Assembly: GCA_019044685.2 (NCBI GenBank)
Contig: JAGTXX020000008.1
Span: forward strand, 186,001-250,000
Origin: Nannochloris sp. 'desiccata'
Lineage: Eukaryota; Chlorophyta; Trebouxiophyceae; Chlorellales; Chlorellaceae
Direction of reading: 5' to 3'
Length of the DNA stretch: 64,000 bases
The translations under genes and the position numbers were made by a program. Position 1 is the stretch's first letter, and each line of letters opens with the position of its first letter. The notes under the pieces are model-generated. The model saw only the letters and a list, made by a program, of their open reading frames with translations, was not told the DNA's origin and did no database searches. Positions 1,351 to 64,000 of the stretch are shown in pieces.

Positions 1351-2037
1351 CTGCAAGATTGAGTAGGAGAAAGAAAGAAACATTTGAAATTAATCATTCG
1401 TACAATGAATACCAAATTTCAAATTACTTGATGCAAGCACAGCAGCAAAAAGTACGAAAGTACTGTATATCTTCTCAGTGCAAGTACACAGCAACAGAGA
1501 TCAATGATTTAGATGAGAGTTGCAGCATTTGATGCATATCAGCAATCAAATAAAGAGAGTTTTGGTGCAAGATCTTGAAGATCCTTGAAACAGCAACCAA
1601 ACAAATGATGATTTGAAGTGAGGAAGTTTCTTGGATCTCCTCCATTTACTATGAAAGGAGCCAGAATGGGTACCTAGGTTACATTACTGTTACAGCATTG
1701 TCATTTGTGTGCCAGATCAAATAACTATTAGGGCCAGTAATAGTTTATGCAGGCAAAAACACAAACCAATACACAGTAAAAAGGTGATGATATTCAGGCA
1801 TACGCAGAGTATGTACCATCATCAAAAGAAACATTGCTAAGAACAAGCAATAATCATCATCAAACAGCAACAAAAATATCATCTTTACGCATCATTAAGA
1901 AGAGATAAGAAAAAGAAAAGAAGAAAAACAAGATATTTTGCAGCAGCAAGAAATATCTTCAAGAGGAAAGACCAAAGTGACAGTAATGCCAGTTCATTGA
2001 ATTCAAGAAGAACTCGAAATGCAAGCTTATTACTTAC
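1351..2037 (-). other. Putative intron between Gyp-B gag and pol (copy 1)
   Basis: On the minus strand the gap begins GTAAGTAATAAG, directly inside the last gag codons, and ends in a pyrimidine tract plus CTTGCAG just before pol. Joining 2038 to 1350 keeps gag and pol in one frame. The same boundaries occur in copy 2 at 34309-34994. No other coding frame in the gap looks real. Confidence 0.75.
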
Positions 2038-3109
2038 TTTGAGCTTTCACGTCGACATCCATCATGTTGACACCAGTAGTTGCCTTAGGACAATCCTTCT
2101 TCAAGTGATCTGGACTGCCACAGCCCCAACACTTTCTTCCTGGAACAGAAGGCTTGACACCAGTTTTGGACGATTTCTGAACGCCGTTATTATTGTTGTA
2201 GGGAGACTTCCCTTGGCGTTGACCAGAGGAATGCTTTCCTTGACCAGAAGCAGACCCAGAAGCGTGTCCAGACTGGAATTTCTTGCGTTGACCAGAATTT
2301 TGACCATTATACTTCATTTTACGAGAAGAAGAAGAAGAAGCATAGTTGACAGCCATCGTGATAGCTTCAGAAAAGCTATGATGTCCCAACACAGTCCTCA
2401 TGAGCAATACATGCTCAGCCATTTCAGTTGGTAACAACCGAATAAAGCAGTCACACTGCTCAGAATCTGTGATGTCGGTGTGGGCTGCATGTTGTTGAAT
2501 GAGAGAAGCCAGTTTAACAACATTACCACGCCATTCCAACGAGCGAAGTTTATCACGAGCAAGCTGGTTACGTTCGCCAAAAGAGAAACGTTTGATGAAA
2601 AATTCGCAGAAGGTAGCAAAGGGATCATCAGAATAGGTCAAAAATTGCCAATCTTCAGATTTTTGAAACTGTTGAAACCAAGTGTCCGCAATGGAAGTAA
2701 ACTTCAAGGGAATGACTTCCATAAGCTGTACACTACTGAAGCTTGTAAATTTGGCCATTTTAGAAAACTGAACCAAATAATCTTCAGGTTGGACACCATT
2801 ATCACCAGAGAAAGTAGGAAAATCTTTAGCTAATTTCAAGAAATCAACTTTAGACATTTCTTCATCTCTAGGTGGTTGGCCAGAGTGATTAGACTCAGGA
2901 GATGGTGAAGGAAGACGAGGAGTAGGAGAAATAGGATTGCGTGGAGCGCTGCCACCACCACGGCCACCACGGCCACCACGTTGACTACCACGTTGACCAC
3001 GTTGACCACCACGGCCCGCCGTTTGACCGGCAGCCGTTTGACCGGCAGGAGCGGCACCACCAGGATTAATATCAGCCAAAGCTGGGCCTCGAGAGCGCGT
3101 TTGAACCAT
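2030..3109 (-). CDS. gag: Gyp-B gag (copy 1)
   Basis: A 359-residue Gag starts at the ATG at 3109; longer versions of the frame run back into the leader. It has a Gly/Arg/Gln-rich N-terminal region (residues about 30-55), a retrotransposon Gag core (about 90-270) and one C-terminal zinc knuckle of the form CX2CX4HX4C beginning CWGCG. Gag forms the particle and binds the element's RNA. The last codons overlap a consensus 5' splice site (GTAAGT from 2037 downwards), so the frame can either stop at TAA or be spliced into pol. Copy 1 is 4 residues longer than copy 2 because of one extra Gln-Arg-Gly-Gly-type repeat unit. Confidence 0.9.
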   Translation of the reverse strand: MVQTRSRGPALADINPGGAAPAGQTAAGQTAGRGGQRGQRGSQRGGRGGRGGGSAPRNPISPTPRLPSPSPESNHSGQPPRDEEMSKVDFLKLAKDFPTFSGDNGVQPEDYLVQFSKMAKFTSFSSVQLMEVIPLKFTSIADTWFQQFQKSEDWQFLTYSDDPFATFCEFFIKRFSFGERNQLARDKLRSLEWRGNVVKLASLIQQHAAHTDITDSEQCDCFIRLLPTEMAEHVLLMRTVLGHHSFSEAITMAVNYASSSSSRKMKYNGQNSGQRKKFQSGHASGSASGQGKHSSGQRQGKSPYNNNNGVQKSSKTGVKPSVPGRKCWGCGSPDHLKKDCPKATTGVNMMDVDVKAQSK

Positions 3110-3208
3110 ATTAAAGGTTAAACAAGTAAACAAGGGTGAGAGAGAGGGAGAGAGGTAGCAAACAGAACCAAAAAGGCGAAGAATCGACCTTCTCAAGCTG
3201 AAACCAGT

Positions 3209-3400
3209 TGTTGCAGACGCTAGTCTTATGTAGCTTCAAGGAAGCTACCCTAAAAGGTATTTGTCTATAAGAGATTACAGAGTGGTTATTTATGTAATAA
3301 TAAGAATAATCCGAAGGTAAAGAGAAGTCAGAGTAAATAATATTGGAAAAAGAAACCAGTGGGCGAAATGAGGGCGCAATGAACTTTGCGCCCTGCAACA
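3209..3400 (-). repeat. LTR-B, 5' LTR of Gyp-B copy 1 (192 bp)
   Basis: On the minus strand it starts TGTTGCAGGG and ends CTGCAACA, so the termini are inverted repeats (TGTTGCAG/CTGCAACA). The same 192 bp occur at 920-1111, 32958-33149 and 38681-38872. TGGTTTCAGCTT follows two bases after it, as a tRNA primer-binding site should. Confidence 0.93.
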
Positions 3401-4043
3401 TCAAGAAGAAGCATATGGAGCTGGTGCTGAAGGGAGTCATTGATGGCCTCCCGCCAGACCGAGAAGCAACAGGTGGAAACTTCAAGATTGATTTGAAGCC
3501 TGGTGCTGAAGCTTCTAAGCAAGCTCCATACAGAATGAGTGCTCAGCTTGTTCCTGAGCTGGATCGCCAGCTTGCTGATATGATGGCACGTGGTTATATC
3601 CGACACAGCACTTCTGAATTTGGCGCTCCTGTGCTCTTTGTTAAGAAGAAGAATGGTGAATGGCGTTTATGTGTTGATTACAGGGATTTAAACTCTAAGA
3701 CTATCAAAGATCGGTTTCCTTTACCTAGAATTGATGATCTGCTGGATACTTTGGATGGTGCTGCTGTTTTCACTAGCTTGGATGCAGTGCAAGGCTACCA
3801 TCAGTGTCGCATTCGTGCTGAAGATGTTCATAAGACTGCCTTTCGTACACAATATGGTCATTTTGAGTACTTAGTACTGCCTTTCGGTCTTGCTAATGCT
3901 CCTGCTCACTTCCAGCGATACATGAATCGTATGTTCAGGGAAGCTGGCCTGCTGGGTGTCACTGTGCTGGTCTATATTGATGACATTCTCATCTTCAGTG
4001 CAGATCCTGCTGAGCATGCAAAGCATGTTGATGCTGCTCTACA
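3401..4043 (+). pseudogene. pol: Gyp-A pol, reverse transcriptase fragment (left part)
   Basis: The open frame encodes Ty3/gypsy RT, from the segment before the palm ([17 protein letters not shown]) to the catalytic [12 protein letters not shown]. It begins directly at the end of the inserted Gyp-B LTR and ends at 4043, where unrelated sequence starts and adds a few codons to a stop at 4059. The remainder of the same pol resumes at 8902, with 271 bp of overlap. Confidence 0.9.
3773..4043 (+). repeat. 271-bp direct repeat, left copy
   Basis: Bases 3773-4043 match 8902-9172 along the whole length with one difference seen (T at 3932, C at 9061; Met versus Thr in RT). The two copies bracket the 4044-8901 block exactly. 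Confidence 0.93.
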
Positions 4044-4201
4044 CACTAGTATGTACTAATGGTCCTAAAAGTGTCCTAAATCTATCCTGACAAAAGATGA
4101 ATTCAGGATACTTTCAGGACACTTTCAGGTTTGCAATTATGATACTTACAGGAAAAGTGATAGGACAACTTCAGGATAAAAAAAGACGAGTAGGAACTTT
4201 T

Positions 4202-4310
4202 AGGAGAAAAGTCCAGGACAGTTTTAGGATAAAGAAAAGATGGCTAGGGAAGTTTCAGGAGAAAAGTCCAGGAACGTTTTAGGATAAAGAAAAGATGGCT
4301 AGGGAAGTTT
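4202..4310 (+). repeat. Tandem repeat, two units of about 55 bp
   Basis: Units 4202-4256 and 4257-4310 differ only around one short stretch (GGACA against GGAAC). Each contains GTTTTAGGATAAAG, the motif also seen near the right end of the block. The flanking 4044-4495 region is otherwise non-coding, with scattered TTTCAGGA and AGGATA motifs. Confidence 0.85.
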
Positions 4311-4495
4311 GCATGAAAAGTCAAGGATGGATATAGGATAGACAAAGGATACTTTCAGGAGGAAGAAATGACATTATTAGAAAGAAATAAAGACAAGTTG
4401 GGGAGAGTTCCAAGAGAGGATATACACACATCATTATTAAGGCGCTATGGGTAACTGTAATGCAGGACAACAACATAGCAACAACCTCAAGACTT

Positions 4496-5944
4496 CTATC
4501 TTTGACTTCCAGTACGTCTATTACGTTGGCTACCACTAGCAGCACCCACTGCTGTTGCGACGGCAGCTGCAGCACGCTGGCTACCACCAGCTGCACCTCG
4601 CTCCTTCCTGGCATCCTTTTTGCTTTGCTGCTGTTGCAAAGCAATTTCTTTTGCATTTAATTGTCCACTTTCCCAATCATATTGTTCCGCCTGCTGTTCA
4701 GCATCTTCCTGCCCTGCAGCCATTGCTTCCGCCAATTGTTCCTCGTCCATCTCTTCCTCTTCTTGCTCCTCTTCCTCTTGCATCTCTTCCTCTTCTTGCT
4801 CCTCTCCCTCTAAGTTTTCAAGATGGGATACGATTTCCTTGGCTTCAGCAAGTGTCATTGCCTTCCACTTTCTCTGCAAATAATTAATTGTGGAATAATT
4901 AGTCTAGGGCGGTAACAAAACAATAAGTACCACCTGCAATAATATTCACTCGCCCTCATCCCCTGTAGTTTGCCACTGATTAACTTCTCCCATTCTTTTG
5001 GGTACCCTTCTGCTTTGTAGTACACCAAGTAATCGTGAGTCCAGTTCTCCACTCTCCTTCTAACGCTCTCATCCCACGCTGCACTCTTAGACCCAATATA
5101 TCCAGGCTCGGCCGCGAACTTTACCATTTCGCTATTGAGATTCGACATTCGTGTTCTGACAGCGCTCTTTACGCGTTTTTCTGTGACACGGGGTTGACCT
5201 CCACGAGGTGTAGAGAAGTTAACGACGCTACAAATGGCAAAAAAGTAGCCAGGGGTCCAAAAAAGCTTTTCGACCTTGTTTTTCAATCTCTCGTTCTGTG
5301 GTTTGTCAAAACCAAAGCAACCATATGGGATGCTCCCATCCCTACCGTTGTATTGAGCGCAATATTTTTCAACCACCTCATTTAATTTCTCTGTCTCCTC
5401 CTTTGTCAATTTGTTCCTGTTGACTCCTCCCACACTCTGCAAGCAAGTAAATAGCGCCTGAGTATTAGTTACCTTGCATTGACAGCACAATCAGTTGCCA
5501 TGTTATACTTACCGTTGCACCAGTACCAGTGCCATTGCTTCCGCCATTCTCATCCATAGTGTCCAGACATTGGAAGCTGTGACTTGCTCCGTCCACGAAT
5601 GACACCTCCAGAGTAATTGTATCACTGGTGCAACCAGAAAAGAAAGCTTCGTGGGCGTCATTACCAGCTGCTAAGGACTTAATTCCGTCTAAAATTGCAG
5701 CAGGTGACATTAATGTGGCCACTCCGCTTGCATCTTTGCCGTGAATGCGGACGCATTTCCGCTTCCCCTCCAAGTCATTTGAGGTCTTGATGTCATCAAA
5801 TGCCGCCTTTAGGCGACGCTTTGGCGTCGCCAGCTGCCAGTTGGGGTCATTCTTCAACTCAATGGGGACGTTCACGCTGCCTTGTGCGCCGTCTTCCGTT
5901 GTTCTGAGTTGGAGTATTGTCTTAACCATAATTTTCTGATCCAA
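4496..5944 (-). CDS. Three-exon gene of unknown function in the inserted block
   Basis: Exons on the minus strand: 5944-5513, 5436-4934 and 4871-4496, with introns of 76 and 62 bp. Donors are GTAAGT and GTGGTA; acceptors are CTTGCAG and TTGCAGAG. The joined frame is 1311 nt (436 residues and a stop), exactly divisible by three. A start at 5929 (MVKTIL) is also possible. Residues about 45-75 are basic. The middle is hydrophilic with no hydrophobic segment long enough for a membrane helix. Residues about 340-400 are a Glu/Gln-rich low-complexity stretch, and the tail is Ala/Arg/Gly-rich. I recognise no family. It shares a 518-bp promoter region with the divergent gene at 6463. A DNA-binding or accessory role in a mobile unit is only a guess. 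Confidence 0.7.
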
Positions 5945-28061: not shown

Positions 28062-28254
28062 TGTGATGATATGGCATAGCTAGCGAGAAGCTGCCTCGTC
28101 ACATCATGCATAGCACGCCTCCGCTGCGTGAGCTAATATAAAGAACACCTTTTGCATTCTGTAGAGGGACTTTGATTTACCTAGAACCTGTAACTAGAAC
28201 TTAGAACAACTAGAACAAGTAGTGGTGTTTAGCCAAACACGGTTAATCATCACA
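28062..28254 (+). repeat. LTR-C, 5' LTR of Gyp-C copy 2
   Basis: 193 bp from TGTGATGAT to ATCATCACA. Differs from the 3' LTR by at least two bases (T/C near 28160 and C/A near 28247). Confidence 0.93.
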
Positions 28255-28257
28255 TTT

Positions 28258-28275
28258 TGGCACCCAAGGCGCGGC
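28258..28275 (+). promoter_or_regulatory. Primer-binding site of Gyp-C
   Basis: TGGCACCCAAGGCGCGGC lies three bases after the 5' LTR and begins with the TGG that pairs with tRNA CCA. Gyp-E has a near-identical site at 48798-48815. Confidence 0.75.
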
Positions 28276-28413
28276 TAGAATCTCCTTGCTCGCTCTCCTA
28301 TTAGAGTCTACCGGTGTTAAGCAAGCCTGGGAACCGGTGTTTTACTGTTCTTAGTGAAATATCAAACTCCAAGGTTGTTTAGCTGAGCCTTGTTAACGAA
28401 TTATTTATTCAAG

Positions 28414-29415
28414 ATGAACGAAGAGCAGATTTTGGCAATGCAACAAGAAAATGCGAATTTGCAAAACGCAGTACAGCAATTGCAAGCGCAGGTTCTTGCT
28501 ATGCAACAACAACAACCACAGCAGCAGGCCATGGCATTTGACCAAGCTCCTGTACCTGCAGTTGTCCCTATACAAGTGGTGGAAAATGTTGACGATGAAG
28601 GTAAAAAGATTACCCGTTTTATCAAAACTAAACCTGACAAATTCTCAGGAAGTCGTAGCAAAGATCCTGAAGAATGGGCTTATGAAGTAGCAAATACGCT
28701 TGAAGCAGCAGGAATTACCTTGGAAGAAACCAAAATCTTGGCCGTGAAGCATGCATTAACAGGTCAAGCGGCGATTTGGTGGCGTTCAATTACCGAAGGG
28801 CATGTAGCTAATATTCCTACTACTTTTGAAGCATTTAAACATGCTTTAATTCAACGTTACAGACCTAAGGATCCAGCGTATGAAGCTCGCCAAAAACTAG
28901 ACAGTTTGAAGCAAACAGGCTCTGCTGAGGCCTATGCAGATAAATTTTTAACAATGACGGTTAGAACAGAACTGACGGAAGAAGAGATGGCGTACCTCTT
29001 TATGAAGGGATTAAAACCTCGTATTAAAGCAAAGGTCCTTGAAAAGTACAAATTGAAGGAATTACATGGCCTTGAGGCATTAATGACCTACGCTATTGCT
29101 GTAGATGACGCTACGTATGAAGCTGGCAATGATAAAAACAACGGCGCTGAAAAAATCGATTCTGGCGGTAGTGCTGGAAATGGAAAAAGCTGGAAAGGGC
29201 AACATGCTGGTCACGCTAGTACCTCTTCACAACATCCTGCTAGTACTACAACTCCTATGGAGATTGATAGCTTTAAAAAGATTGAAAAGCTTACTCCTGA
29301 AACTAGGGCGCAGTGCATTAAGGAAGGGCGTTGTTTGTTTTGCCGCGAACCAGGTCACATTGTAGTTAACTGTCCCAAGAAGAACAAGATCAACCCAAAC
29401 GGACAGAGGCAGTGA
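28414..29415 (+). CDS. gag: Gyp-C gag
   Basis: 333 residues from ATG 28414 (MNEEQILAMQQENANL). A Gln-rich heptad-like N-terminus suggests a coiled coil. A Gag core follows (FSGSRSKDPEEWAYEV ... LMTYAIAVDDATY), and the zinc knuckle CLFCREPGHIVVNC lies near the end. It stops at TGA 29413-29415, 13 nt beyond a slippery heptamer. Intact, unlike this copy's pol. Confidence 0.92.
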   Translation: MNEEQILAMQQENANLQNAVQQLQAQVLAMQQQQPQQQAMAFDQAPVPAVVPIQVVENVDDEGKKITRFIKTKPDKFSGSRSKDPEEWAYEVANTLEAAGITLEETKILAVKHALTGQAAIWWRSITEGHVANIPTTFEAFKHALIQRYRPKDPAYEARQKLDSLKQTGSAEAYADKFLTMTVRTELTEEEMAYLFMKGLKPRIKAKVLEKYKLKELHGLEALMTYAIAVDDATYEAGNDKNNGAEKIDSGGSAGNGKSWKGQHAGHASTSSQHPASTTTPMEIDSFKKIEKLTPETRAQCIKEGRCLFCREPGHIVVNCPKKNKINPNGQRQ

Positions 29416-29450
29416 GCAGGGATGTTGTTGAAAGTGGAGACTCGCTGCCT
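29394..29450 (+). promoter_or_regulatory. -1 frameshift signal at Gyp-C gag/pol (copy 2)
   Basis: Heptamer C_CCA_AAC at 29394-29400 in gag phase, spacer GGACAG (29401-29406), stem AGGCAGTGAG (29407-29416) with CTCGCTGCCT (29441-29450), one U-G pair and a 24-nt loop. The -1 frame is open into protease. Confidence 0.78.
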
Positions 29451-29729
29451 GTAGTAGAAAACCTAGAACAAGAGATTGATGAAGTAGTTGATGTAGATTT
29501 AATTAAAGAGGTAGCTAGGTGGAAGTCGGCAAAATTGTTGAGAACAAAATTTAGAGTAGGCTGTGTTGAAGCTGACACACTGTTTGATAGTGGTTCTTCA
29601 GTTAACTTAGTAGCAGATAGTTTTGTTTTAAAGCACAAATTAAAGACTAGAACGATTGAAAATGGCCCTACTTTTCGTACTGCTGACGGGCGGTACCACC
29701 GCTGCGAAAAAGTCTTGGACCTTTGCTAG
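29412..29729 (+). CDS. Gyp-C protease frame (copy 2)
   Basis: Same 105 codons as in copy 1, with FDSGSSVNLV. In expression it is the continuation of Gag after the -1 slip; the GTG at 29412 is only the first start-like codon. It ends at CTT TGC TAG, after which pol continues one base ahead. Confidence 0.8.
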   Translation: MSRDVVESGDSLPVVENLEQEIDEVVDVDLIKEVARWKSAKLLRTKFRVGCVEADTLFDSGSSVNLVADSFVLKHKLKTRTIENGPTFRTADGRYHRCEKVLDLC

Positions 29730-32700
29730 AATTAGAGCTTCATGCTATAGTGACACTCTTACCAACATATTCGTGCTCCTAGGAGACTGTCCTTTTGATT
29801 TGGTTCTTGGAAAGCCTTGGTTTGATGAAAAGAATCCCCAAATTGACTGGCCAAATAATTTAATTACTCTCCAACACGACGGTAAGACGATAGCGTTTAG
29901 AGCTGACTACCATGACCAGAAACATTTGAAGAAAAATGGCCTTATTTCCGCTGTGGAAATGGAAGCTGAACTATCCTCAGGGAATATCGTTCACTTTTGC
30001 GTAATAAAGCCGATACCAGAAAAGTACGAGAACTACGAGTATGGCAGTGACGGGAAAAATTTAGAAAAAAATGGTTTAGAAAAACACGTAGATATGCTTG
30101 TAGATGAGTTGGTAGATGTCTTTGACCCTGATTTGCCATTACCTGTTGACCGAGAAATTGAGCACGAGATAGAGCTGGAACCCGGAGCCAGCCCTGTTGC
30201 TCAACAGATGTACCGCCTGAGTTTCGAGGAACTGGCGGAGCTGAAAACCCAGATCCTAGATTACCTGAACCGAGGTTTTATTCGGCCTAGTAAGTCACCT
30301 TACGGGGCTCCTATCTTATTTGTACGTAAGAAAAGTGGAGCTTTGCGCATGTGCGTTGATTACAGAGGTCTGAATAGAATTACCAAGAAAAATCGCTGCC
30401 CGCTGCCGCGTATCGATGACCTACTGGACAAGCTAGCTGGAGCTAAATACTTTACTAGCTTGGATCTTAAGTCTGCCTACCATCAGATTAAGATTAAAGA
30501 AGAAGATATTGAGAAAACTGCATTTAGAACGCCTTTTGGGCATTTTGAGTTTGTTGTGCTACCTTTTGGGTTATGCAACGCTCCCGCTACTTTTCAAACT
30601 TTAATGAATAATGTTTTTAGAGATGAGCTACATCAGTTTGTTTTGTGTTATTTAGATGATATTATGATCTTTTCTAAGTCGTTGCAGGCGCACATACAGC
30701 ACGTGCGTCATGTTTTTGAAAAATTAAGAAAGAATAAACTTTTTGTGAATAAAGAAAAGTGTTTGTTTTTCCAAACTAAAATTGCTTGGCTGGGCTACAT
30801 TATTTCAGAAAATGGAATAAAGGTGGACCAGAGCAAGATTTCTACAATTTTAGAATGGCCTGTTCCCAAGAATACTATAGATATTTTGTCGTTTTTAGGT
30901 TTTACTGGATACTACCGCAAGTTTATAGAAAAATATTCCCACATTGCCGCCCCGATGACGGAACTTTAAAAAAAAGATATTTCTTTTATTTGGACCCCAA
31001 CACAGCAACAAGCTTTTGAAACTTTAAAGTCTAAACTTACTACTGCACCTATTTTAATACTACCCAGTCCAGATTTTCCTTTTGAAATGTACACCGATGC
31101 TTCTGACTTTGCTTTTGGTGGTGTTTTAATGCAAGACCAGGGTCAAGGCTTGAAGCCGGTGGCCTTCTCCTCGAAGAAGCTGAGCGAAGCTGAGCGAAAA
31201 TACGATATTTACGAGAAGGAAGCTCTCTCCCAGATCCATCACCTGAAGTTGTGGCGCTGCTACATCCAGAGCGCGCACAGAAGCACAGCCTACACTGACA
31301 ACAACGTCTTAAAATACCTCCAGACACAACCTCGGCTGTCGCCCCGACAAGCCCGCTGGATGGAAGTATTGTCTCAGTTCAACGTGTACGTGGAGTACAT
31401 CACTGGAAAAGCAAACGTAGTTGCTGATGCGTTGTCTAGGAGACCTGATTTTGCTATGACCGTCGTCTTTGCCTGTCAAGACAGCGATTGGTTGTTGCAG
31501 CTGAAGGAATCTTATAAAGAAAGCCCGGAAGCGAAGAAAATTATTCAATTAATCCAAGAAAAACAAAGTAGAGATTACGTCTTTGACCACGGTTACATCG
31601 TACGTAGAACCCCTGAAAACACTCAACTCTACGTTCCTGAAGGACCTTTACGCAAAGAGCTCGTAGAAGAACACCATGATTCCCTTCTAGCTGGACATTT
31701 TGGCGTTGCGAAAACCGCCGCTCTACTTCTCCGCTGCTACTACTGGCCACAGTTGCAGCGTGATGTTCGGCGTGGTGTGCAATCATGTGAACGTTGTGGT
31801 GCATCTAAAAGCTCTAACCAGAAGAAAGCTGGTCTTTTACGACCTTTACCTACCCCTACAAGACGTTTTGAAGTTATTACTATGGATTTTGTTACCTCGT
31901 TGCCGGACGTCGACAATTTTAACGCTATCATGATTATGGTGGACAAGCTGACTAAACGAGTCTTCCTAGCTCCCACCACTGATAAAGTTACTGCTGAAGA
32001 AGCTGCAACATTGTTTTATAGGCATGTCGTTAGAAATCAAGGAGTACCTAGCACTATTATTTCAGATCGAGGCACTCAATTTACGAGCATTTTCTGGAAA
32101 TCAATGATTGCTCAGCTGGGGATTAAACACAAGCTTTCTACCGCTTACCACCCTCAAACTGATGGTCAATCAGAGATTACAGTTAGAATAGTTGTAGATA
32201 TGCTGCGTACTTTGCACCAAGAATACCCAAACTGGGTTCAGATTTTACCCGCCGTCGAGTTTGCCATCAACAACAGCAAAAATGTTTCTACTGGAAAAAC
32301 ACCTTTCTTCCTTTGCTATGGCGAAGAAGTACCTACTCCTCCTACCCTCAACCTTCAAGCTTTAGCGAAGCTGAATCCCAACCAACCTTCTGTAGATTTT
32401 GCTGCACGCACTCAAATAGCTATTCAAGAAGCACAGCGCATGCTTGCCGAAGCTCAGCGGAAACAGAAATATTACGCTGACCAAGGTAGAAGACATCTTA
32501 CTTTTGAAGAAGGAGATCAAGTTTACATTTCTACTGCTGATTTACCATTGAAGGGACCTCGCAAGCTAGCACCAAAGTGGTTTGGACCCATTCCTGTCGT
32601 GAAGAAACTTAGCCCGCTCAACTACCAAGTGGCGCTGCCGCCTATATGGAGAAGAAGATATCCTATTTTTCACGTTGAGAAGCTCAAACCTTTCGTACAA

Positions 32701-32957
32701 AGCACTGAATTTCCTAATCGTTACCCTGCTAGACCTCCTCCAGACCTGGAGCAAGGCCCTGATGTCTTCAACGTTGAAAAAATTCTGGACCGTCGCTCGA
32801 CACCGTGGGGTCGTGGCTTTAAAGTTGAATACTATGTTAAATGGGAAGGATACCCTTTGTGTGACTCTACCTGGGAACCTAAATCAAATTTTAGAGATGC
32901 TGGAACAGAAGTGAAACGCATGCTGCGTGAGATAGATCAGCAGCACGATGCTACCTA
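29715..32957 (+). pseudogene. pol: Gyp-C pol (copy 2), one nonsense codon
   Basis: RT, RNase H, integrase and chromodomain as in copy 1. TTA has become TAA at 30967-30969, after PMTEL in the RT connection region. The rest, from 30970 onwards, is open. The last codons are displaced: GAT GCT ACC at the end is followed by the Gyp-B LTR, and the original stop TAA lies beyond it at 39127. Confidence 0.92.
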
Positions 32958-33149
32958 TGTTGCAGGGCGCAAAGTTCATTGCGCCCTCATTTCGCCCACT
33001 GGTTTCTTTTTCCAATATTATTTACTCTGACTTCTCTTTACCTTCGGATTATTCCTATTATTATATAAATAACCACTCTGTAATCTCTTATAGACAAATA
33101 CCTTTTAGGGTAGCTTCCTTGAAGCTACATAAGCCTAGCGTCTGCAACA
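32958..33149 (+). repeat. LTR-B, 5' LTR of Gyp-B copy 2
   Basis: 192 bp, TGTTGCAG to CTGCAACA. A TATAAATAA-like promoter element sits near its middle. Confidence 0.93.
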
Positions 33150-33151
33150 AC

Positions 33152-33163
33152 TGGTTTCAGCTT
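33152..33163 (+). promoter_or_regulatory. Primer-binding site of Gyp-B
   Basis: TGGTTTCAGCTT two bases after the LTR. The same 12 bases follow LTR-D, LTR-F and LTR-G, so four families would prime from one tRNA 3' end (AAGCTGAAACCA). Confidence 0.8.
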
Positions 33164-33248
33164 GAGAAGGTCGATTCTTCGCCTTTTTGGTTCTGTTTGC
33201 TACCTCTCTCCCTCTCTCTCACCCTTGTTTACTTGTTTAACCTTTAAT

Positions 33249-34316
33249 ATGGTTCAAACGCGCTCTCGAGGCCCAGCTTTGGCTGATATTAATCCTGGTG
33301 GTGCCGCTCCTGCCGGTCAAACGGCTGCCGGTCAAACGGCGGGCCGTGGTGGTCAACGTGGTCAACGTGGTAGTCGTGGTGGCCGTGGTGGTGGCAGCAC
33401 TCCACGCAATCCTATTTCTCCTACTCCTCGTCTTCCTTCACCATCTCCTGAGTCTAATCACTCTGGCCAACAACCTAGAGATGAAGAAATGTCTAAAGTT
33501 GATTTCTTGAAATTAGCTAAAGATTTTCCTACTTTCTCTGGTGATAATGGTGTCCAACCTGAAGATTATTTGGTTCAGTTTTCTAAAATGGCCAAATTTA
33601 CAAGCTTCAGTAGTGTACAGCTTATGGAAGTCATTCCCTTGAAGTTTACTTCCATTGCGGACACTTGGTTTCAACAGTTTCAAAAATCTGAAGACTGGCA
33701 ATTTTTGACCTATTCTGATGATCCCTTTGCTACCTTCTGCGAATTTTTCATCAAACGTTTCTCTTTTGGCGAACGTAACCAGCTTGCTCGTGATAAACTT
33801 CGCTCGTTGGAATGGCGTGGTAATGTTGTTAAACTGGCTTCTCTCATTCAACAACATGCAGCCCACACCGACATCACAGATTCTGAGCAGTGTGACTGCT
33901 TTATTCGGTTGTTACCAACTGAAATGGCTGAGCATGTATTGCTCATGAGGACTGTGTTGGGACATCATAGCTTTTCTGAAGCTATCACGATGGCTGTCAA
34001 CTATGCTTCTGCTTCTTCTTCTCGTAAAATGAAGTATAATGGTCAAAATCCTGGTCAACGCAAGAAGTTCCAGTCTGGAAACGCTTCTGGGTCTGCTTCT
34101 GGTCAAGGAAAGCATTCCTCTGGTCAACGCCAAGGGAAGTCTCCCTACAACAATAATAACGGCGTCCAGAAATCGTCCAAAACTGGTGTCAAGCCTTCTG
34201 TTCCAGGAAGAAAGTGTTGGGGCTGTGGCAGTCCAGATCACTTGAAGAAGGATTGTCCTAAGGCAACTACTGGTGTCAACATGATGGATGTCGACGTGAA
34301 AGCTCAAAGTAAGTAA
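33249..34316 (+). CDS. gag: Gyp-B gag (copy 2)
   Basis: 355 residues from ATG 33249 (MVQTRSRG). Gly/Arg-rich N-terminal segment, Gag core, Ser/Gly/Gln-rich linker, zinc knuckle CWGCGSPDHLKKDC, and a short tail. The final codons AGT AAG TAA contain the 5' splice site GTAAGT. Unspliced RNA gives this Gag; spliced RNA would continue into pol. Confidence 0.93.
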   Translation: MVQTRSRGPALADINPGGAAPAGQTAAGQTAGRGGQRGQRGSRGGRGGGSTPRNPISPTPRLPSPSPESNHSGQQPRDEEMSKVDFLKLAKDFPTFSGDNGVQPEDYLVQFSKMAKFTSFSSVQLMEVIPLKFTSIADTWFQQFQKSEDWQFLTYSDDPFATFCEFFIKRFSFGERNQLARDKLRSLEWRGNVVKLASLIQQHAAHTDITDSEQCDCFIRLLPTEMAEHVLLMRTVLGHHSFSEAITMAVNYASASSSRKMKYNGQNPGQRKKFQSGNASGSASGQGKHSSGQRQGKSPYNNNNGVQKSSKTGVKPSVPGRKCWGCGSPDHLKKDCPKATTGVNMMDVDVKAQSK

Positions 34317-34994
34317 TAAGCTTGCATTTCGAGTTCTTTTTGAATTCAATGAACTGGCATTACTGTCACTTTGGTCTTTCCTCTTGAAGATATTTCTGCG
34401 GCTGCAAAATATCTTGTTTTTCTTCTTTTCTTTTTCTTATCTCTTCTTAATGATGCGTAAAGATGATATTTTTGTTGCTGTTTGATGATGATTATTGCTT
34501 GTTCTTAGCAATGTTTCTTTTGATGATGGTACATACTCTGCGTATGCCTGAATATCATCACCTTTTTACTGTGTATTGGTTTGTGTTTTTGCCTGCATAA
34601 ACTATTACTGGCCCTAATAGTTATTTGATCTGGCACACAAATGACAATGCTGTAACAGTAATGTAACCTAGGTACCCATTCTGGCTCCTTTCATAGTAAA
34701 TGGAGGAGATCCAAGAAACTTCCTCACTTCAAATCATCATTTGTTTGGTTGCTGTTTCAAGGATCTTCAAGATCTTGCACCAAAACTCTCTTTATTTGAT
34801 TGCTGATATGCATCAAATGCTGCAACTCTCATCTAAATCATTGATCTCTGTTGCTGTGTACTTGCACTGAGAAGATATACAGTACTTTCGTACTTTTTGC
34901 TGCTGTGCTTGCATCAAGTAATTTGAAATTTGGTATTCATTGTACGAATGATTAATTTCAAATGTTTCTTTCTTTCTCCTACTCAATCTTGCAG
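34309..34994 (+). other. Putative intron that fuses Gyp-B gag and pol
   Basis: 5' end CAAA/GTAAGTAA, a perfect GTAAGT. 3' end TTTCTTTCTTTCTCCTACTCAATCTTGCAG/TC. Joining 34308 to 34995 gives codons CAA ATC ATA GAT TTG in one frame from gag to protease. Length 686 bp, with no credible coding in between. The sites are conserved in copy 1. Confidence 0.78.
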
Positions 34995-37900
34995 TCATAG
35001 ATTTGGGTGTTGTGTCCACAGACATGATTACTTCTGCTGATGGTGTTCCTACTTGTGCTAATCAATTATTGATTATGGAAGGTTCCGTGAGTACTCTTCC
35101 TGTCAAAGTCATGATTGATGGTGGTGCTGGTGCTACTTTCATTACTGGAAAGTGTGCAAAACGTCTTAACCTTCACCCGCGTACTCGTGCTGGATCTATC
35201 ACTGTACGACTGGCTAATGGTAGTACCTATCAATGTCGTGAAACAATCACAGTGCCTCTGCGCATTAGTACTTATCGACAGTCTGTACGAATGTTTGTCT
35301 TGGATGTTGATTCTGCTGTAGATATTATTCTTGGCAAGAATTGGTTGGAATTTCACAATCCCCACATTGATTGGCGACTTAATACTGTGGAATTTGTCTA
35401 TCAAGATCAGCAGATCTTGTTGTCCACTTCTGGAGCGGACGCTGCTCCTGCTGCCCCTACTTCTGGTTCTTCTCTTATCTCTGCTACTCAGCTGGCAAGA
35501 ATTCTGCGTAATAAAAATACTCCTGTTTTCTTAATCAATCTGAATCTGGTTGAACCTTCTCCTCCACCTTCTGCTGTGAATTCTAGGCCTGCTGCTGCTA
35601 CTAATGATGATGATGAAGAAGAGTTTGATGAAGATGGTAATCTAATCCCTCGTCTTACTACAGATGAAGATCCTTGGGCTAATATTCATGAAACTTATGA
35701 AAAAGAATATTTCGATGTATTTGATTTGCGTACTTTCTTCCCTCCTGAAAGGAATGTTCAGCACGAAATTCCTTTGGAGCCTGGTCATGTGCCTCCCTGT
35801 CAACGTCCTTATAGGATTTCTCCTAGGGAAATGGAAGAATTACGAAAGCAAATTCGAGAAATGATCGATGCTGGCATTATTCAACCCTCTTCTTCTCCAT
35901 ATGCTGCTCCTGTCATTTTTGTTCCAAAGCAAGATGGTACACTCCGTATGTGTGTTGACTACAGAGCTCTCAATAAAATTACCATTAAGGATAAATTTCC
36001 ATTGCCTAAAATGGATGAGTTGCTCAATTGCCTGGAAGGTGCTCGTTATTTTAGTAAGATTGACTTGAAATCTGCTTATTATCAAGTTCGAGTCAAGGAA
36101 GAAGACATCCCTAAAACGGCTTTTAATACTCGATATGGTCATTACGAGTTTCGTGTTATGCCTTTTTGGACTTACTAATGCTCCTGCCACCTTCCAAAAG
36201 CTGATGAATAGCATTTTTGCTGACAGCATGGAGAAATTTCTGGTCGTTTACCTTGATGATATCCTCATTTTCAGTAAAACTGCAGAAGAACATGACAAAC
36301 ATATTCGTTATGTTTTAGATCGTTTGCGTGAACATCAGTTACATGCTGGTCTGCAGAAGTGTCGGTTTTTCCAAACTGAAATTGAATTTGTTGGTTATTT
36401 GCTTACTGCTGAAGGCATTCACATGCTGCCAAAGAAGGTTGATGCTATTTTAAACTGGCCTGTACCTACTACTGCCAGTCAAGTCAAATCTTTCTTGGGA
36501 TTGGCTACTTTCTATCGCCATTTTGTTGAGCATTTTGCTCATAAAGCTATTCCCTTGTATCAGATTACCAGGAAAAATCAGATATTCACGTGGCTGCCTC
36601 GTCATCAAGAAGCTTTTGAGCAGTTAAAGTTGGCTTTAACTACTGCTCCTGTGCTTGCTCCTCCTGATTTCAATCTTCCATTTGAAATTCACACTGATGC
36701 TTCTGATTTTGCTGCTGGTGCTGTGCTTTCTCAAGAAGGGAATCATCCCATAGCTTTTCTTTCTCACGTTTTCAAACCTGCTGAACTCAATTATTCTACT
36801 TATGATAAAGAGTTTCTGGCTATTATTCTTGCTCTGCGTGCTTGGAGACATTACATTCATGGCCATCCTACTACAGTCTACACTGACCATCAAGCGTTGA
36901 TCTCTATTCAAACTCAAACCTTTGTGAATCGTCGTCACAATCGTTATTTGCAATTTCTTGCTGAATTTGGTAATGATCTGATTATCAAATACAAACCTGG
37001 TCGTTCAAATGTAGTTGCTGATGCTTTGAGCAGAATTCCTAACCTGAATTCTATCTCAACACTTGGTCCTTCTCCTGAGCTTCTGCATGAATTTGCTGTA
37101 GCTTACGTCTCTGACCCTCTTACTGAGACTTTCTTCACTGGAGGTGCTGGTCCAACCAAATGGTCTCTGCACGATGGCTTCATTTATGAAGAGAAGAATG
37201 GTGAAAAACTTATTTATGTCCCTGCTTCTAAATCTTTAAAAGATTTAATTATTCATGATCATCATGATGCCGCAATTGCTGGCCATCTTGGAAGAGATAA
37301 AACTATTGCTGCTATTGGTACTACATATACCTGGCCTGGTATGAGAGAAGATATTGCTCGTTATGTTGCTGAATGTCCTACCTGTCAAGTGGTCAAATCT
37401 TCAAATCAAGTAACTCCTGGGCTGTTGTCTCCTCTGGATATCCCTTGTAGACGCTGGGAGCAAATTCATATCGATTTGATTGGTCCTTTACCTGTCACCC
37501 CTCGTGGTTTTGATGCAATTGTCACCATTGTAGATCGTTTGAGTAAAGCTGCTGTCTTTATTCCCACTACTATGACTGTGACTGCAAGGCAATTAGCAGA
37601 GGTTTTCTTTAATAATGTCTTCAGACATTATGGTCTTCCTTCAATCATTATTTCTGATCGAGATCCTCGTTTTACCAGCAATTTTTGGCGTGCTTTGATG
37701 GATCATTTAGGCATTTCTTTGCATATGACTGCTGCCTACCATCCTCAGTCTGATGGACAAGCTGAACGCCATAATCGTACTATTCAAGATATGTTGCGTG
37801 CTTACGTCAATCCATCTACTAGGGATGATTGGGATGAGCATTTGGTTGCTCTTGAGTTTGCTTACAATAACTCTGTCAATAGGGCTACAGGCTTTTCTCC

Positions 37901-38534
37901 TTTTTTCATGCTGTATGGTCAAAATCCCAATACTCCTGCTTCCTTGCTGCGTGCTACTGTCAGCCTTTCTCCTGCTGTTGATGATTTTTTAGCTCGAATT
38001 ACTGAGACTCTGACTCAATCTCGTACTAATTTAGCTAAAAACCAGGAGCAAATGCAAAACCAAGTTAACAAACGCAGGCGCTTTGTGAGATATGAAGTTG
38101 GTGAACGTGTTTTGGTGGATGCTTCCCGTCTTTACCAGGCACCGCGTGGTAAATTGACTCACAAATGGGTTGGTCCTTTTGAAGTCGCTGAAGTGCTAAA
38201 TGATAATGCTTATGTTTTACACTTACCTCCTCGTCTTAAAAACACCTCTTCTACCTTCAACGTTACTCAATTGAAGCGTTATCAGGAAACGGATCGTGAA
38301 TTTCCTCGCCCACCTCCCATTGGCTACGAGAGCGGACAACCACTTTATGAATTCGAGAAAATTTTGGCTCATCGTGGTCCTAAAAACAATCGCTACTACC
38401 TCGTAAAATGGAAAGGTTGGCCTGTTGATGAAAATCTCTATGAACCTGCTAGTAATTTATCTGGTGTTCAAGCAGATGTTGATGCTTATGAGGCTTCCAT
38501 CCCTGTGCAGCGCCGCAAGCGCTCTCGTCGTTGA
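34995..38534 (+). pseudogene. pol: Gyp-B pol (copy 2), one frameshift
   Basis: Protease [12 protein letters not shown] with [12 protein letters not shown], RNase H with HTDASDFAAG and TDHQAL, integrase zinc finger (HH and CPTCQVVK), DD35E core (IDLIGPLP, SDRDPRF) and a C-terminal chromodomain (YYLVKWKGWPVDENLYEP). An extra T in the run at 36163-36167 splits the frame at the [10 protein letters not shown] motif. Otherwise complete, so this copy is only one base away from open. Confidence 0.92.
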
Positions 38535-38680
38535 TTGTCGCAGCACTCACCTACACATGGATTTAGTACGTCCTGTTTTTGCCCGTTGGGTTTTCAGGTT
38601 GCGTCACCGGTAGGACAGATGCGTACGACATGTTTAGTTTTTAGCCTCTAGATCTGGGTTCCTCTTTAAGAAAGGGAGGA

Positions 38681-38872
38681 TGTTGCAGGGCGCAAAGTTC
38701 ATTGCGCCCTCATTTCGCCCACTGGTTTCTTTTTCCAATATTATTTACTCTGACTTCTCTTTACCTTCGGATTATTCCTATTATTATATAAATAACCACT
38801 CTGTAATCTCTTATAGACAAATACCTTTTAGGGTAGCTTCCTTGAAGCTACATAAGCCTAGCGTCTGCAACA
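38681..38872 (+). repeat. LTR-B, 3' LTR of Gyp-B copy 2
   Basis: 192 bp, preceded by the polypurine tract CTTTAAGAAAGGGAGGA, which is identical to the tract in the mini-element. Confidence 0.93.
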
Positions 38873-38878
38873 ACTGGA

Positions 38879-39123
38879 TGTTGCAGATGGGGTTCGTAGC
38901 CCCATGGGAAAAAGACCCATGTAGTGGCGGATAATGCCACCCGAAGGCATGTTACCTTTTGGGTCTGCAATAGTGGTTTCAGCTTCTCGGTTCGAACCTT
39001 ACCGGAGTCTTTCTTTAAGAAAGGGAGGATGTTGCAGATGGGGTTCGTAGCCCCATGGGAAAAAGACCCATGTAGTGGCGGATAATGCCACCCGAAGGCA
39101 TGTTACCTTTTGGGTCTGCAATA
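38879..39123 (+). mobile_element. 245-bp miniature LTR retrotransposon (two 94-bp LTRs)
   Basis: LTR-D 38879-38972 and 39030-39123 enclose 57 bp that contain little but a primer-binding site and a polypurine tract. The PBS, TGGTTTCAGCTTCTCGG and onwards, complements about 25 nt of a tRNA 3' end, through CCA, acceptor, T-stem and a TTCGAAC loop. The tract is AAGAAAGGGAGGA. There is no coding capacity. Shared tract, PBS start and LTR ends point to Gyp-B as helper. Confidence 0.87.
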
Positions 39124-39258
39124 ACCTAAAAAAATATTTAGCGTAAATTTTACAAGGTTAATTTTAATTTTCATTTTGAGTTTTACCCTACTGCTTGCAC
39201 CTTTCTTTCTGCTGAATCATAAACGTGAGGACACGTTTTCAGAGAGAGGGGGGAAGAA

Positions 39259-61701: not shown

Positions 61702-64000
61702 ATGCAAGCAGATTTCAATCCTAGCTTCTCTTTCAATACATGCCAGGGAAATGACGATTATCAGGCCCCTTGGGAATTCAAAGGTAAGTTGCATTATTTG
61801 ATTTCCATCTTTAAATCCCGAATAGGAACACTTTATACGCATGCATGCTATTTTGTAATTTTCAAATACTTCGTTCCCTATAGGAGCTTTAGAGCAAGTC
61901 AATATATCAAACGGCACAAGCATTGACTTCAAAATTCAGAAACATGCCACTACAAAGCCAAATACGAACGGAGGCACTCGCAAAAGGGCTGCAGATGACT
62001 TTGCCATCATCGCCGACGACAGTGGTTCTGTTCAGCACGAGAAGGATGACGAGCAGCAACACAGATTGAAGAATATATACGGGAAGAAACCAAAGGAGAA
62101 ATTTAATAAGAAGCAAAAGCAAAGCCTCCACAGCAACACTAATGATAAAGAACAGCAGCAGCCTGACGCCGCTTCTTCCCCTTCTGATCAAGAGCAAGAT
62201 AATGAAGATGACGACGATGCGCTTGAACAACAACACAAGAATCACAAAGCTATCAAAAAGCAGTCAAAATCTTCGTTCTTCAATGCTGCTCCGGAAGGCA
62301 CTACCTTTGCTGCAGCTTCATTTGCCGACCTCAATCTCTCTCGTCCTCTTGTTCGTGCTTGTGCTGCACTGGGGTACTTGAAACCTACGCCAATTCAAGC
62401 AGCGTGTATTCCATTAGCTTTGACTGGACGTGACATTTGTGGTAGTGCTATCACAGGTTCTGGAAAAACAGCTGCATTTTCTTTGCCTCTTTTAGAACGT
62501 TTGATGCATCGTAGTCGACGTGTCGCTGCTACTTATGTGCTGGTGCTCACTCCTACAAGAGAGCTGGCAGTGCAAGTGCATTCTATGATACAGAAATTAG
62601 CTCAATTTACGGATGTTCAAGCTGCACTTGTTGTTGGTGGTCTCTCTCTCCAAGCTCAAGCTGCTGCCTTGCGTGCTGGCCCTGAAATTGTTGTTGCAAC
62701 ACCAGTGAGTTTTTAAGATGTTAAGAAGTATTTACTTAGTACTGGCATCTCTACATCATAATACAGTGCATCGTCTAACGTCCTCTGTTCTATTCTATCT
62801 CCATTCCAGGGTCGATTAATTGATCATGTACATAATTCTCAAGGATTTGGTCTTGAAGATTTAGCTGCATTGGTATTAGATGAAGCAGATCGGTTATTAG
62901 AAATGGGATTTGCCGAAGAAATAAAGGAAATTGTGCGTATGTCTCCAACAAAGCGTCAAACACTGCTCTTTTCTGCAACAATGACTGAAGAAGTCAATGC
63001 CCTTGTTGCTTTGTCGCTGCGGCACCCAGTCCGCCTTGCAGCTGATGCAGCAGCAGCATCCCCTGCCAACCTCCACCAAGAAGTCGTTCGTTTAAAAGGT
63101 TCTGGTGCTGCAATGAAGAAAGAAGCAACCCTTCTTGCTTTAGTTTCGCGTTCATTTGCCTCTTCTGGTCGCTGCATCATTTTCTTTTCAACAAAACAGC
63201 GAGCTCACAGAGCCAAAATTTTATTTGGTCTTGCTGGTCTCCCCACTGCAGCTGAACTGCACGGAGACATGACTCAAGCTGCTCGATTAGAAAGTTTAGA
63301 GCGCTTCCGTAAAGGAGAGGTTGCTTTCTTACTTGCAACTGATGTCGCTGCTCGTGGTTTGGACATTTTGGGTGTTGAAGTTGTTATAAATTATGATTGC
63401 CCAAAGACTCTGGCATCGTATTTGCATCGTGTTGGTCGTACAGCCCGTGCCGGATCTAATGGATTAGCGGTAACCGTCGCAGAAGATGGTGATAGAAATT
63501 TGTTAAAAGAGGTTGTTAAAAAAGGCGGTGTTGATCTGCAGCAGCGTGTTGTGCCTGTTCCTGCAGTTGCCAGTTGGTACGAAAAGATATCTGGCATGGA
63601 GAGCCAAGTAGGTGATGTATTAGGTGAAGAACGTGAAGAAAAAGAACTCCGTCGTGCAGAAATGGAAGCTCAAAAGGCTGCAAATATGATTGAACATGAA
63701 ACTGAAATTTATTCACGGCCAGCTCGGACGTGGTTTCAATCTGAAAAGGAAAAGAGAGATGTAGCAGCACAGGCAAAGGATGCTTCTTCTTTAGATTCTT
63801 CGATTCGAAAGAAGATTGATAAAAATACAGCAAAATCAGCACGTAGAATGGAACGGAAAATTGCAGCAAGTAAAGAAAAAGAAGCAGGATCAGAAAAGCA
63901 GCAAACGGGCATCAAAGTCAACGCTGGAATGGTGAGAGCGCTAAAGGCAAGAGAAGCTGCGCTACGAGAAGAAGGCATTCCTGCAAGCAGAGCTGGCCGG
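61702..64000 (+). CDS. DEAD-box RNA helicase, DDX27/Drs1 type (3' end outside window)
   Basis: Exons 61702-61783, 61884-62704 and 62810 to beyond 64000; introns of 100 and 105 bp with GTAAGT/CTATAG and GTGAGT/TTCCAG, frame kept throughout. Motifs in order: Q motif (F...PTPIQ), AITGSGKT (I), PTRELA (Ia), TPGR split by intron 2, DEAD (II), SAT (III), IIFFSTK (IV), ATDVAARGLD (V), HRVGRTARAG (VI). The later ARTWFQSEKEK and a long Lys/Glu-rich tail are typical of DDX27/Drs1, nucleolar helicases for 60S ribosomal subunit assembly. The acidic/Gln-rich N-terminal extension fits as well. Confidence 0.9.

Follow-up and report, generated by a model that had tools for sequence, protein, structure and literature searches.

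The Gyp-B element

Gyp-B, a Ty3/gypsy chromovirus of the chlorellalean green alga Nannochloris sp. 'desiccata', lies on contig C8 with its long terminal repeats (LTRs) at 32958-33149 and 38681-38872 of the window, the whole stretch of 64,000 nt that was analysed. The genome comprises 21.55 Mb in 18 contigs. The LTR ends were defined by the target-site duplications (TSDs) of the copies on C1 and C8, which are 5 bp long (TCGAG in the C1 copy, ATTCC in a deleted C8 copy), and this combination of LTRs and short TSDs is that of Ty3/gypsy elements. The features of the window copy are as follows, the splice signals being candidates:

32958..33149, plus strand: 5' LTR, 192 nt, TG...CA, identical to the 3' LTR
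33151..33163, plus strand: putative primer-binding site CTGGTTTCAGCTT, presumed from its sequence, directly 3' of the 5' LTR
33249..34316, plus strand: gag ORF, 355 aa, with a CCHC zinc knuckle and a weak Retrotrans_gag match
34309..34314, plus strand: 5' splice site GTAAGT, encoding part of Ser, Lys and the first T of the gag stop
34309..34994, plus strand: proposed spliceosomal intron, 686 nt, 41% T
34952..34956, plus strand: branch-point-like TTAAT, with the A at 34955, 39 nt before the intron end (a consensus match only)
34965..34994, plus strand: pyrimidine tract and 3' splice site ...CTTGCAG
34995..36178, plus strand: pol exon, first open frame, protease and first part of reverse transcriptase (RT)
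36069..38534, plus strand: pol, second open frame, rest of RT, RNase H, integrase, SH3 and chromodomain
38681..38872, plus strand: 3' LTR, 192 nt

Pfam matches across the ORFs 34952-36178 and 36069-38534 follow the chromovirus order of protease, RT, RNase H, integrase and C-terminal chromodomain. No additional RNase H family was matched in the Gyp-B pol (Pfam, E up to 0.001), the only one being the RT-linked RNase H. Between these two ORFs the pol frame of the window copy is broken inside RT; in the C1 copy pol is open over 1193 aa and gag is open too.

At the 3' end of the window copy lies a unit of 245 nt (38879-39123), made up of two identical 94-nt terminal repeats with 57 nt inside. It has in common with Gyp-B the sequences TGGTTTCAGCTT and TTTAAGAAAGGGAGGA, which we take to be the primer site and the polypurine tract, respectively. 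The unit yielded 22 matches in the genome, 14 of them covering at least 233 of the 245 bases and some overlapping, as at C8:128571-129117, where they follow one another in 151-nt steps. It looks like a tiny non-autonomous LTR partner and is shorter than the 292-bp element that passages of PMC3281118 give as the smallest LTR retrotransposon then known. The TSD ACCTA (32953-39128) encloses both Gyp-B and the 245-nt unit, which are separated by ACTGGA; the two look as though they had been inserted together as one unit. In a second Gyp-B copy of the window (copy 1), positions 596-1112 hold an insertion with one Gyp-B LTR and a few bases beyond, plus inverted pieces of the 245-nt unit.

The gag-pol gap and its candidate splice signals

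The Gag protein ends in ...VDVKAQSK, with GTAAGT at 34309-34314 and the stop codon TAA at 34314-34316, so that the end of the ORF reads ...CAA A/GT AAG TAA (the slash marks the proposed exon end) and its last two residues, Ser-Lys, come from the donor. At the other side of the gap CTTGCAG ends at position 34994, preceded by TTTCTTTCTTTCTCCTACTCAAT, and pol resumes just upstream of the protease. Excision of 34309-34994 (686 nt) results in a phase-1 in-frame join of gag to pol with the junction codon ATC (A/TC). A preliminary description of this DNA had placed the end of gag inside a perfect GTAAGT donor and the start of pol behind a pyrimidine tract and CTTGCAG, and had stated that removal of 686 nt joins the two in frame without any frameshift; all three statements hold. 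The gap contains 11, 11 and 15 stops in its three frames, which excludes a join by readthrough or by a single frameshift. The ORFs neither overlap nor adjoin as they do in a frameshift-type gag-pol arrangement.

Splice sites were scored with generic weights based on the general consensus and not trained on the Nannochloris host. On this scale the donor ranks first among the 334 GT sites of the element, where it is the only GTAAGT, the acceptor third among 236 AGs, and the pair first among 103 in-frame open GT-AG pairs. The best donor in the LTR and leader scores 3.9 vs 9.6 for the donor at the gag end. The donor follows an A, where exons usually end in G. Among 300 elements simulated by a first-order Markov model, an equally good donor occurred somewhere in 108, and in the 15 nt around the gag stop in none (0/300). 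The T content is 41% in the intron, 30% in gag and 34% in pol. When positions 32900-35400 were searched with Rfam covariance models (E up to 0.1), no match to group I or group II introns or to any other known RNA family was obtained.

Two side observations concern the intron itself. It folds better than 20/20 shuffles (z -2.5; 20 shuffles are few), and it is less diverged than pol in all six copy pairs compared in both. A packaging or export signal inside 34309-34994 is possible.

PMC12636532 lists the host genome at 21.6 Mb and 9,123 genes. As far as sampled, the host appears to be intron-poor: 12 of 14 Cpn60 matches cover 460 or more of the 490 positions within a single open frame, and 33 of 38 DEAD matches span at least 150 of 167 positions, one with an internal stop. 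A host intron is predicted in the window from homology on both sides and from the frame:

62705..62809, plus strand: intron of a DEAD-box helicase gene, 105 nt, GTGAGT...CCATTCCAG

This intron contains 38% T. A CCT gene shows a gap of 136 nt between two matches, and the 686 nt of the Gyp-B intron are long versus these few host introns seen (105 nt and the 136-nt CCT gap). Several CCT and kinase matches miss the first residues of the domain, a hint that host genes may have introns close to their 5' ends.

Genomic copies, protein relatives and other families

The second copy in the window carries the same gap on the opposite strand:

1351..2037, minus strand: Gyp-B intron in copy 1, 687 nt, same sites

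Across the genome we found the intron at six places, five times complete and once reduced to 40 nt by a deletion, and the start of pol at five places, in each of which the intron lies immediately 5' (5/5); these counts are lower bounds. Donor and acceptor are identical in 5/5 copies that hold both sides, copy 1 included, and the genome search for intron and pol start, again with lower-bound counts, revealed no intronless DNA copy. The claim that both window copies keep the splice sites is thereby borne out, and so is its extension to the other copies, with sites kept in 5/5 and no spliced DNA copy found. As the intron directly precedes the pol start in all five cases, no DNA copy looks like reverse-transcribed spliced RNA. 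The deleted copy L010 (C8:106.7k), which carries the 5-bp TSD ATTCC, was considered as a splice product and rejected: it is without element positions ~1393-4575, and the left edge of the missing part lies 40 nt inside the intron with no GT after it, as expected of a deletion.

The copies are very similar to each other. Pairwise differences amount to 0-0.87% in the intron (99-100% identity; 10 pairs of five copies, the 40-nt piece left out), 0.66-0.95% in gag (three pairs, not counting the truncated copies on C16 or the deleted one) and, over the initial 1300 nt of pol, 0.08-1.54% (six pairs, without copy 1, which is interrupted there). The copies are too alike and too young for the conservation of their sites to carry much weight. 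Synonymous and nonsynonymous differences are about equally frequent, e.g. 10 and 10 in pol between W2 and C1, a pattern that does not clearly point to recent selection on the proteins and is neutral for a reading by splicing.

A protein search with pol gave 299 matches, the best 120 of which are listed. Among the matches listed, P0001-P0004 are 88-99% identical to Gyp-B over the scored part, and identity falls to 50% in the next match. The exact junction peptide KAQ-IIDLGVV is present in each of the four. Named proteins of Nannochloris sp. 'desiccata' are P0002, P0121 and P0122 (88-99% identical to those of Gyp-B). The gene models P0001-P0004 may be predictions made without transcripts; P0004 shows further odd joins besides the proposed junction, and in P0121, apparently of the deleted copy L010, the gag end is joined to integrase instead. 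The models show only that gene finders accept the intron. In P0002 (KSW81_003791) a histone-fold protein (PF00125), which we take to resemble a divergent H3 or CenH3, is fused to a Gyp-B gag-pol piece, perhaps owing to an insertion beside a histone-fold gene or to a prediction error.

The search with Gag found six proteins, two from Nannochloris and four metagenomic ones (P0123-P0126), the latter 45-64% identical to Gag over 77-87% of the query. Within the Gag family zf-CCHC is matched in 5/5 members and Retrotrans_gag weakly in 4/5 (E up to 0.1). In 4/4 metagenomic relatives the C-terminus is Ser-Lys, and these two positions are the sole invariant ones in the 23 alignment columns that follow the zinc knuckle; pairwise identity in the other columns is 34%. 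At the protein level, such an invariant end is what a conserved A/GTAAGT donor would leave; a C-terminal protein motif would look alike. A wider Gag profile search, limited to the 8000 candidates with most words in common, yielded one further, weak match (E 9e-4) to an unrelated zinc-finger protein. Nothing was found when viral contigs and genome contigs were scanned for the DNA of the relatives, and no description of the Gyp-B element was found among the top-ranked open-access literature.

Regarding the gag-pol layout of other families in this genome, 8 of 18 loci were read in sense, 7 of which have an upstream ORF overlapping pol in another frame; the seven correspond to six distinct places (L025 and L055 being one place), L047, the eighth, was unclear, and the other 10 loci lie on the minus strand. 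Two candidates for a layout similar to that of Gyp-B were dismissed. L069 on C8, considered as a diverged relative with the same gag-pol spacing, consists of a short gag fragment and, after it, another element with gag and pol overlapping in different frames. GypA (28062-33030) has a gag-pol gap of 228 nt that might have been a second intron; its -1 frame continues through the gag end into the protease, which identifies it as a frameshift family with a broken frame. The statement that the other families here use frameshifting fits the loci read, i.e. seven of eight sense loci of the 18, plus L069 and GypA.

Proposed splicing to Gag-Pol and its alternatives

As judged from the sequence, splicing to Gag-Pol is the best explanation of the gag-pol gap, and we consider it quite likely. 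Gag and Pol would be encoded in two exons with an optional spliceosomal intron between them. With the stop codon overlapping the donor, translation of the full-length unspliced RNA would yield Gag alone, and this RNA would also serve as the genome for reverse transcription. A fraction of the transcripts would be spliced at 34308/34995 and give a Gag-Pol fusion whose pol part begins with the protease, the ratio of Gag to Gag-Pol being set by splicing efficiency rather than by ribosomal frameshifting. LTR retrotransposons move by reverse transcription. If Gyp-B does so as well, its genome RNA would be the unspliced one, since the informative DNA copies keep the intron; and as the genome RNA must stay unspliced, splicing would have to be partial for the element to have both Gag and Gag-Pol. 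The preliminary description had likewise assigned Gag and the genome to unspliced RNA and Gag-Pol to spliced RNA. With the intron kept in 5/5 informative copies this assignment is the best-supported reading, and the switch itself, like splicing in cells, its partial nature and the export and packaging of unspliced RNA, is what we infer from it.

Four other explanations are each less likely than partial splicing to Gag-Pol. The one that survives best is that Pol is made separately, from the ATG near 35024, by internal initiation, from an internal promoter or after a leader-to-pol splice as in spumaviruses, the gap then being a spacer and the donor coincidental or used otherwise. An in-frame pol ATG does follow shortly after the acceptor, P0005 (the pol relative with 50% identity) is listed with a Met start at a similar place, and the gap folds better than all of its shuffles (20/20, z -2.5). 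Nevertheless we regard a separate Pol as improbable: the start of P0005 may be the gene-caller's cut, there is no strong donor in the LTR or leader (best 3.9), and the GTAAGT at the gag stop, the in-frame acceptor, the Ser-Lys ends and the choice of the junction by the gene models would all be left unexplained.

A little less probable again is near-complete, unregulated splicing, in which the intron would be a passenger, Gag would arise by protease cleavage of Gag-Pol or by leakage, and no ratio switch would exist. The splice signals of Gyp-B are strong, which would suit such a passenger; it cannot, however, explain the intron in 5/5 informative copies, as the copied template must be unspliced and encodes Gag alone, and Ogre, with a similar design, splices only a subset of its transcripts according to passages of PMC6317226. 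That the gap is decayed or inserted debris in a dead element is very unlikely, for although the window copy is broken inside RT, the stretch is common to 5/5 informative copies, both flanking ORFs are open in the C1 copy, and Gag stops at the same residues in the relatives. Frameshifting, readthrough or ribosomal bypass, to which the overlapping gag and pol frames of other families in the genome might point, is extremely unlikely across 686 nt with 11-15 stops per frame between the ORFs, and bypass of this length finds no support here.

Comparison with known systems

Retroelements need much more Gag than Pol, which is mostly achieved by frameshifting or readthrough. In Drosophila copia, alternative splicing affects the ratio of Gag to Pol. 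Spumavirus Pol needs a spliced RNA and is translated separately from Gag; Gyp-B would resemble it in the use of spliced RNA for Pol and differs in that the two frames are joined. CRR is a chromovirus of rice. Like Gyp-B as proposed, this Ty3/gypsy element has a spliced transcript, in which splicing removes rt, as stated in sections of PMC3735527. For BARE1 and EVADE (Ty1/copia), passages of PMC3735527 and PMC12786077 describe alternative splicing that affects the Gag to Pol ratio. In copia, BARE1 and EVADE the spliced RNA encodes Gag only, whereas in Gyp-B it would encode Gag-Pol: here the gag ORF ends at the donor and the splice opens into pol. The description of Gyp-B as the reverse of the known spliced retrotransposons is wrong: it is apt with respect to BARE1 and EVADE, whose spliced RNA gives Gag, but not with respect to Ogre, which splices to the whole polyprotein (passages of PMC6317226, PMC3735527 and PMC12786077), so that this mode of action is already known.

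Ogre, a Ty3/gypsy element of the Tat lineage in plants, has two ORFs split by an intron, and this intron is spliced from a subset of transcripts, which allows translation of the whole polyprotein (sections of PMC6317226). In Gyp-B, too, an intron as read from the DNA lies between two ORFs and its removal joins them in frame. The differences are considerable. The first ORF comprises GAG and PROT in Ogre and Gag alone in Gyp-B, with the protease after the intron; Ogre is a non-chromovirus with an extra RNase H between RH and INT, whereas Gyp-B has a chromodomain and the RT-linked RNase H only; the separating region averages 274 bp in Ogre and measures 686 in Gyp-B; and the hosts are land plants on the one hand and a unicellular green alga on the other. 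Given its chromodomain and the protease after the intron, Gyp-B is not an Ogre. Bianca (plants) also has two ORFs, ~172 bp apart on average in the same passages (PMC6317226), but belongs to the Ty1/copia superfamily and was compared by ORF layout. Gyp-B shares with Tf1/sushi and other chromoviruses the order of protease, RT, RNase H, integrase and chromodomain, including a match to SH3_Tf2-1. The strategies named for chromoviruses in the sections of PMC10085805 at hand are a -1 frameshift, an in-frame stop or a single ORF; an intron is not among them.

What is new in Gyp-B is a chromovirus in an intron-poor alga with the protease on the pol side and the gag stop inside the donor. We lean towards the view that an algal chromovirus lineage has for a long time controlled Gag versus Gag-Pol by means of a host intron. 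As the gag stop forms part of the 5' splice site, one hexamer would end Gag when unspliced or open Pol, including the protease, when spliced. The arrangement would have an origin separate from that of Ogre and would have lasted, in at least one unicellular host poor in introns, across relatives that are only 45-64% alike in Gag. If true, it would be a second, apparently independent use of host splicing for Gag/Pol, and the solution would recur outside land plants. A small laboratory alga would then allow splicing rate, intron retention and genome packaging to be measured on one element, with the DNA copies as a natural record of packaged RNA, because a spliced genome copy would lose the intron.
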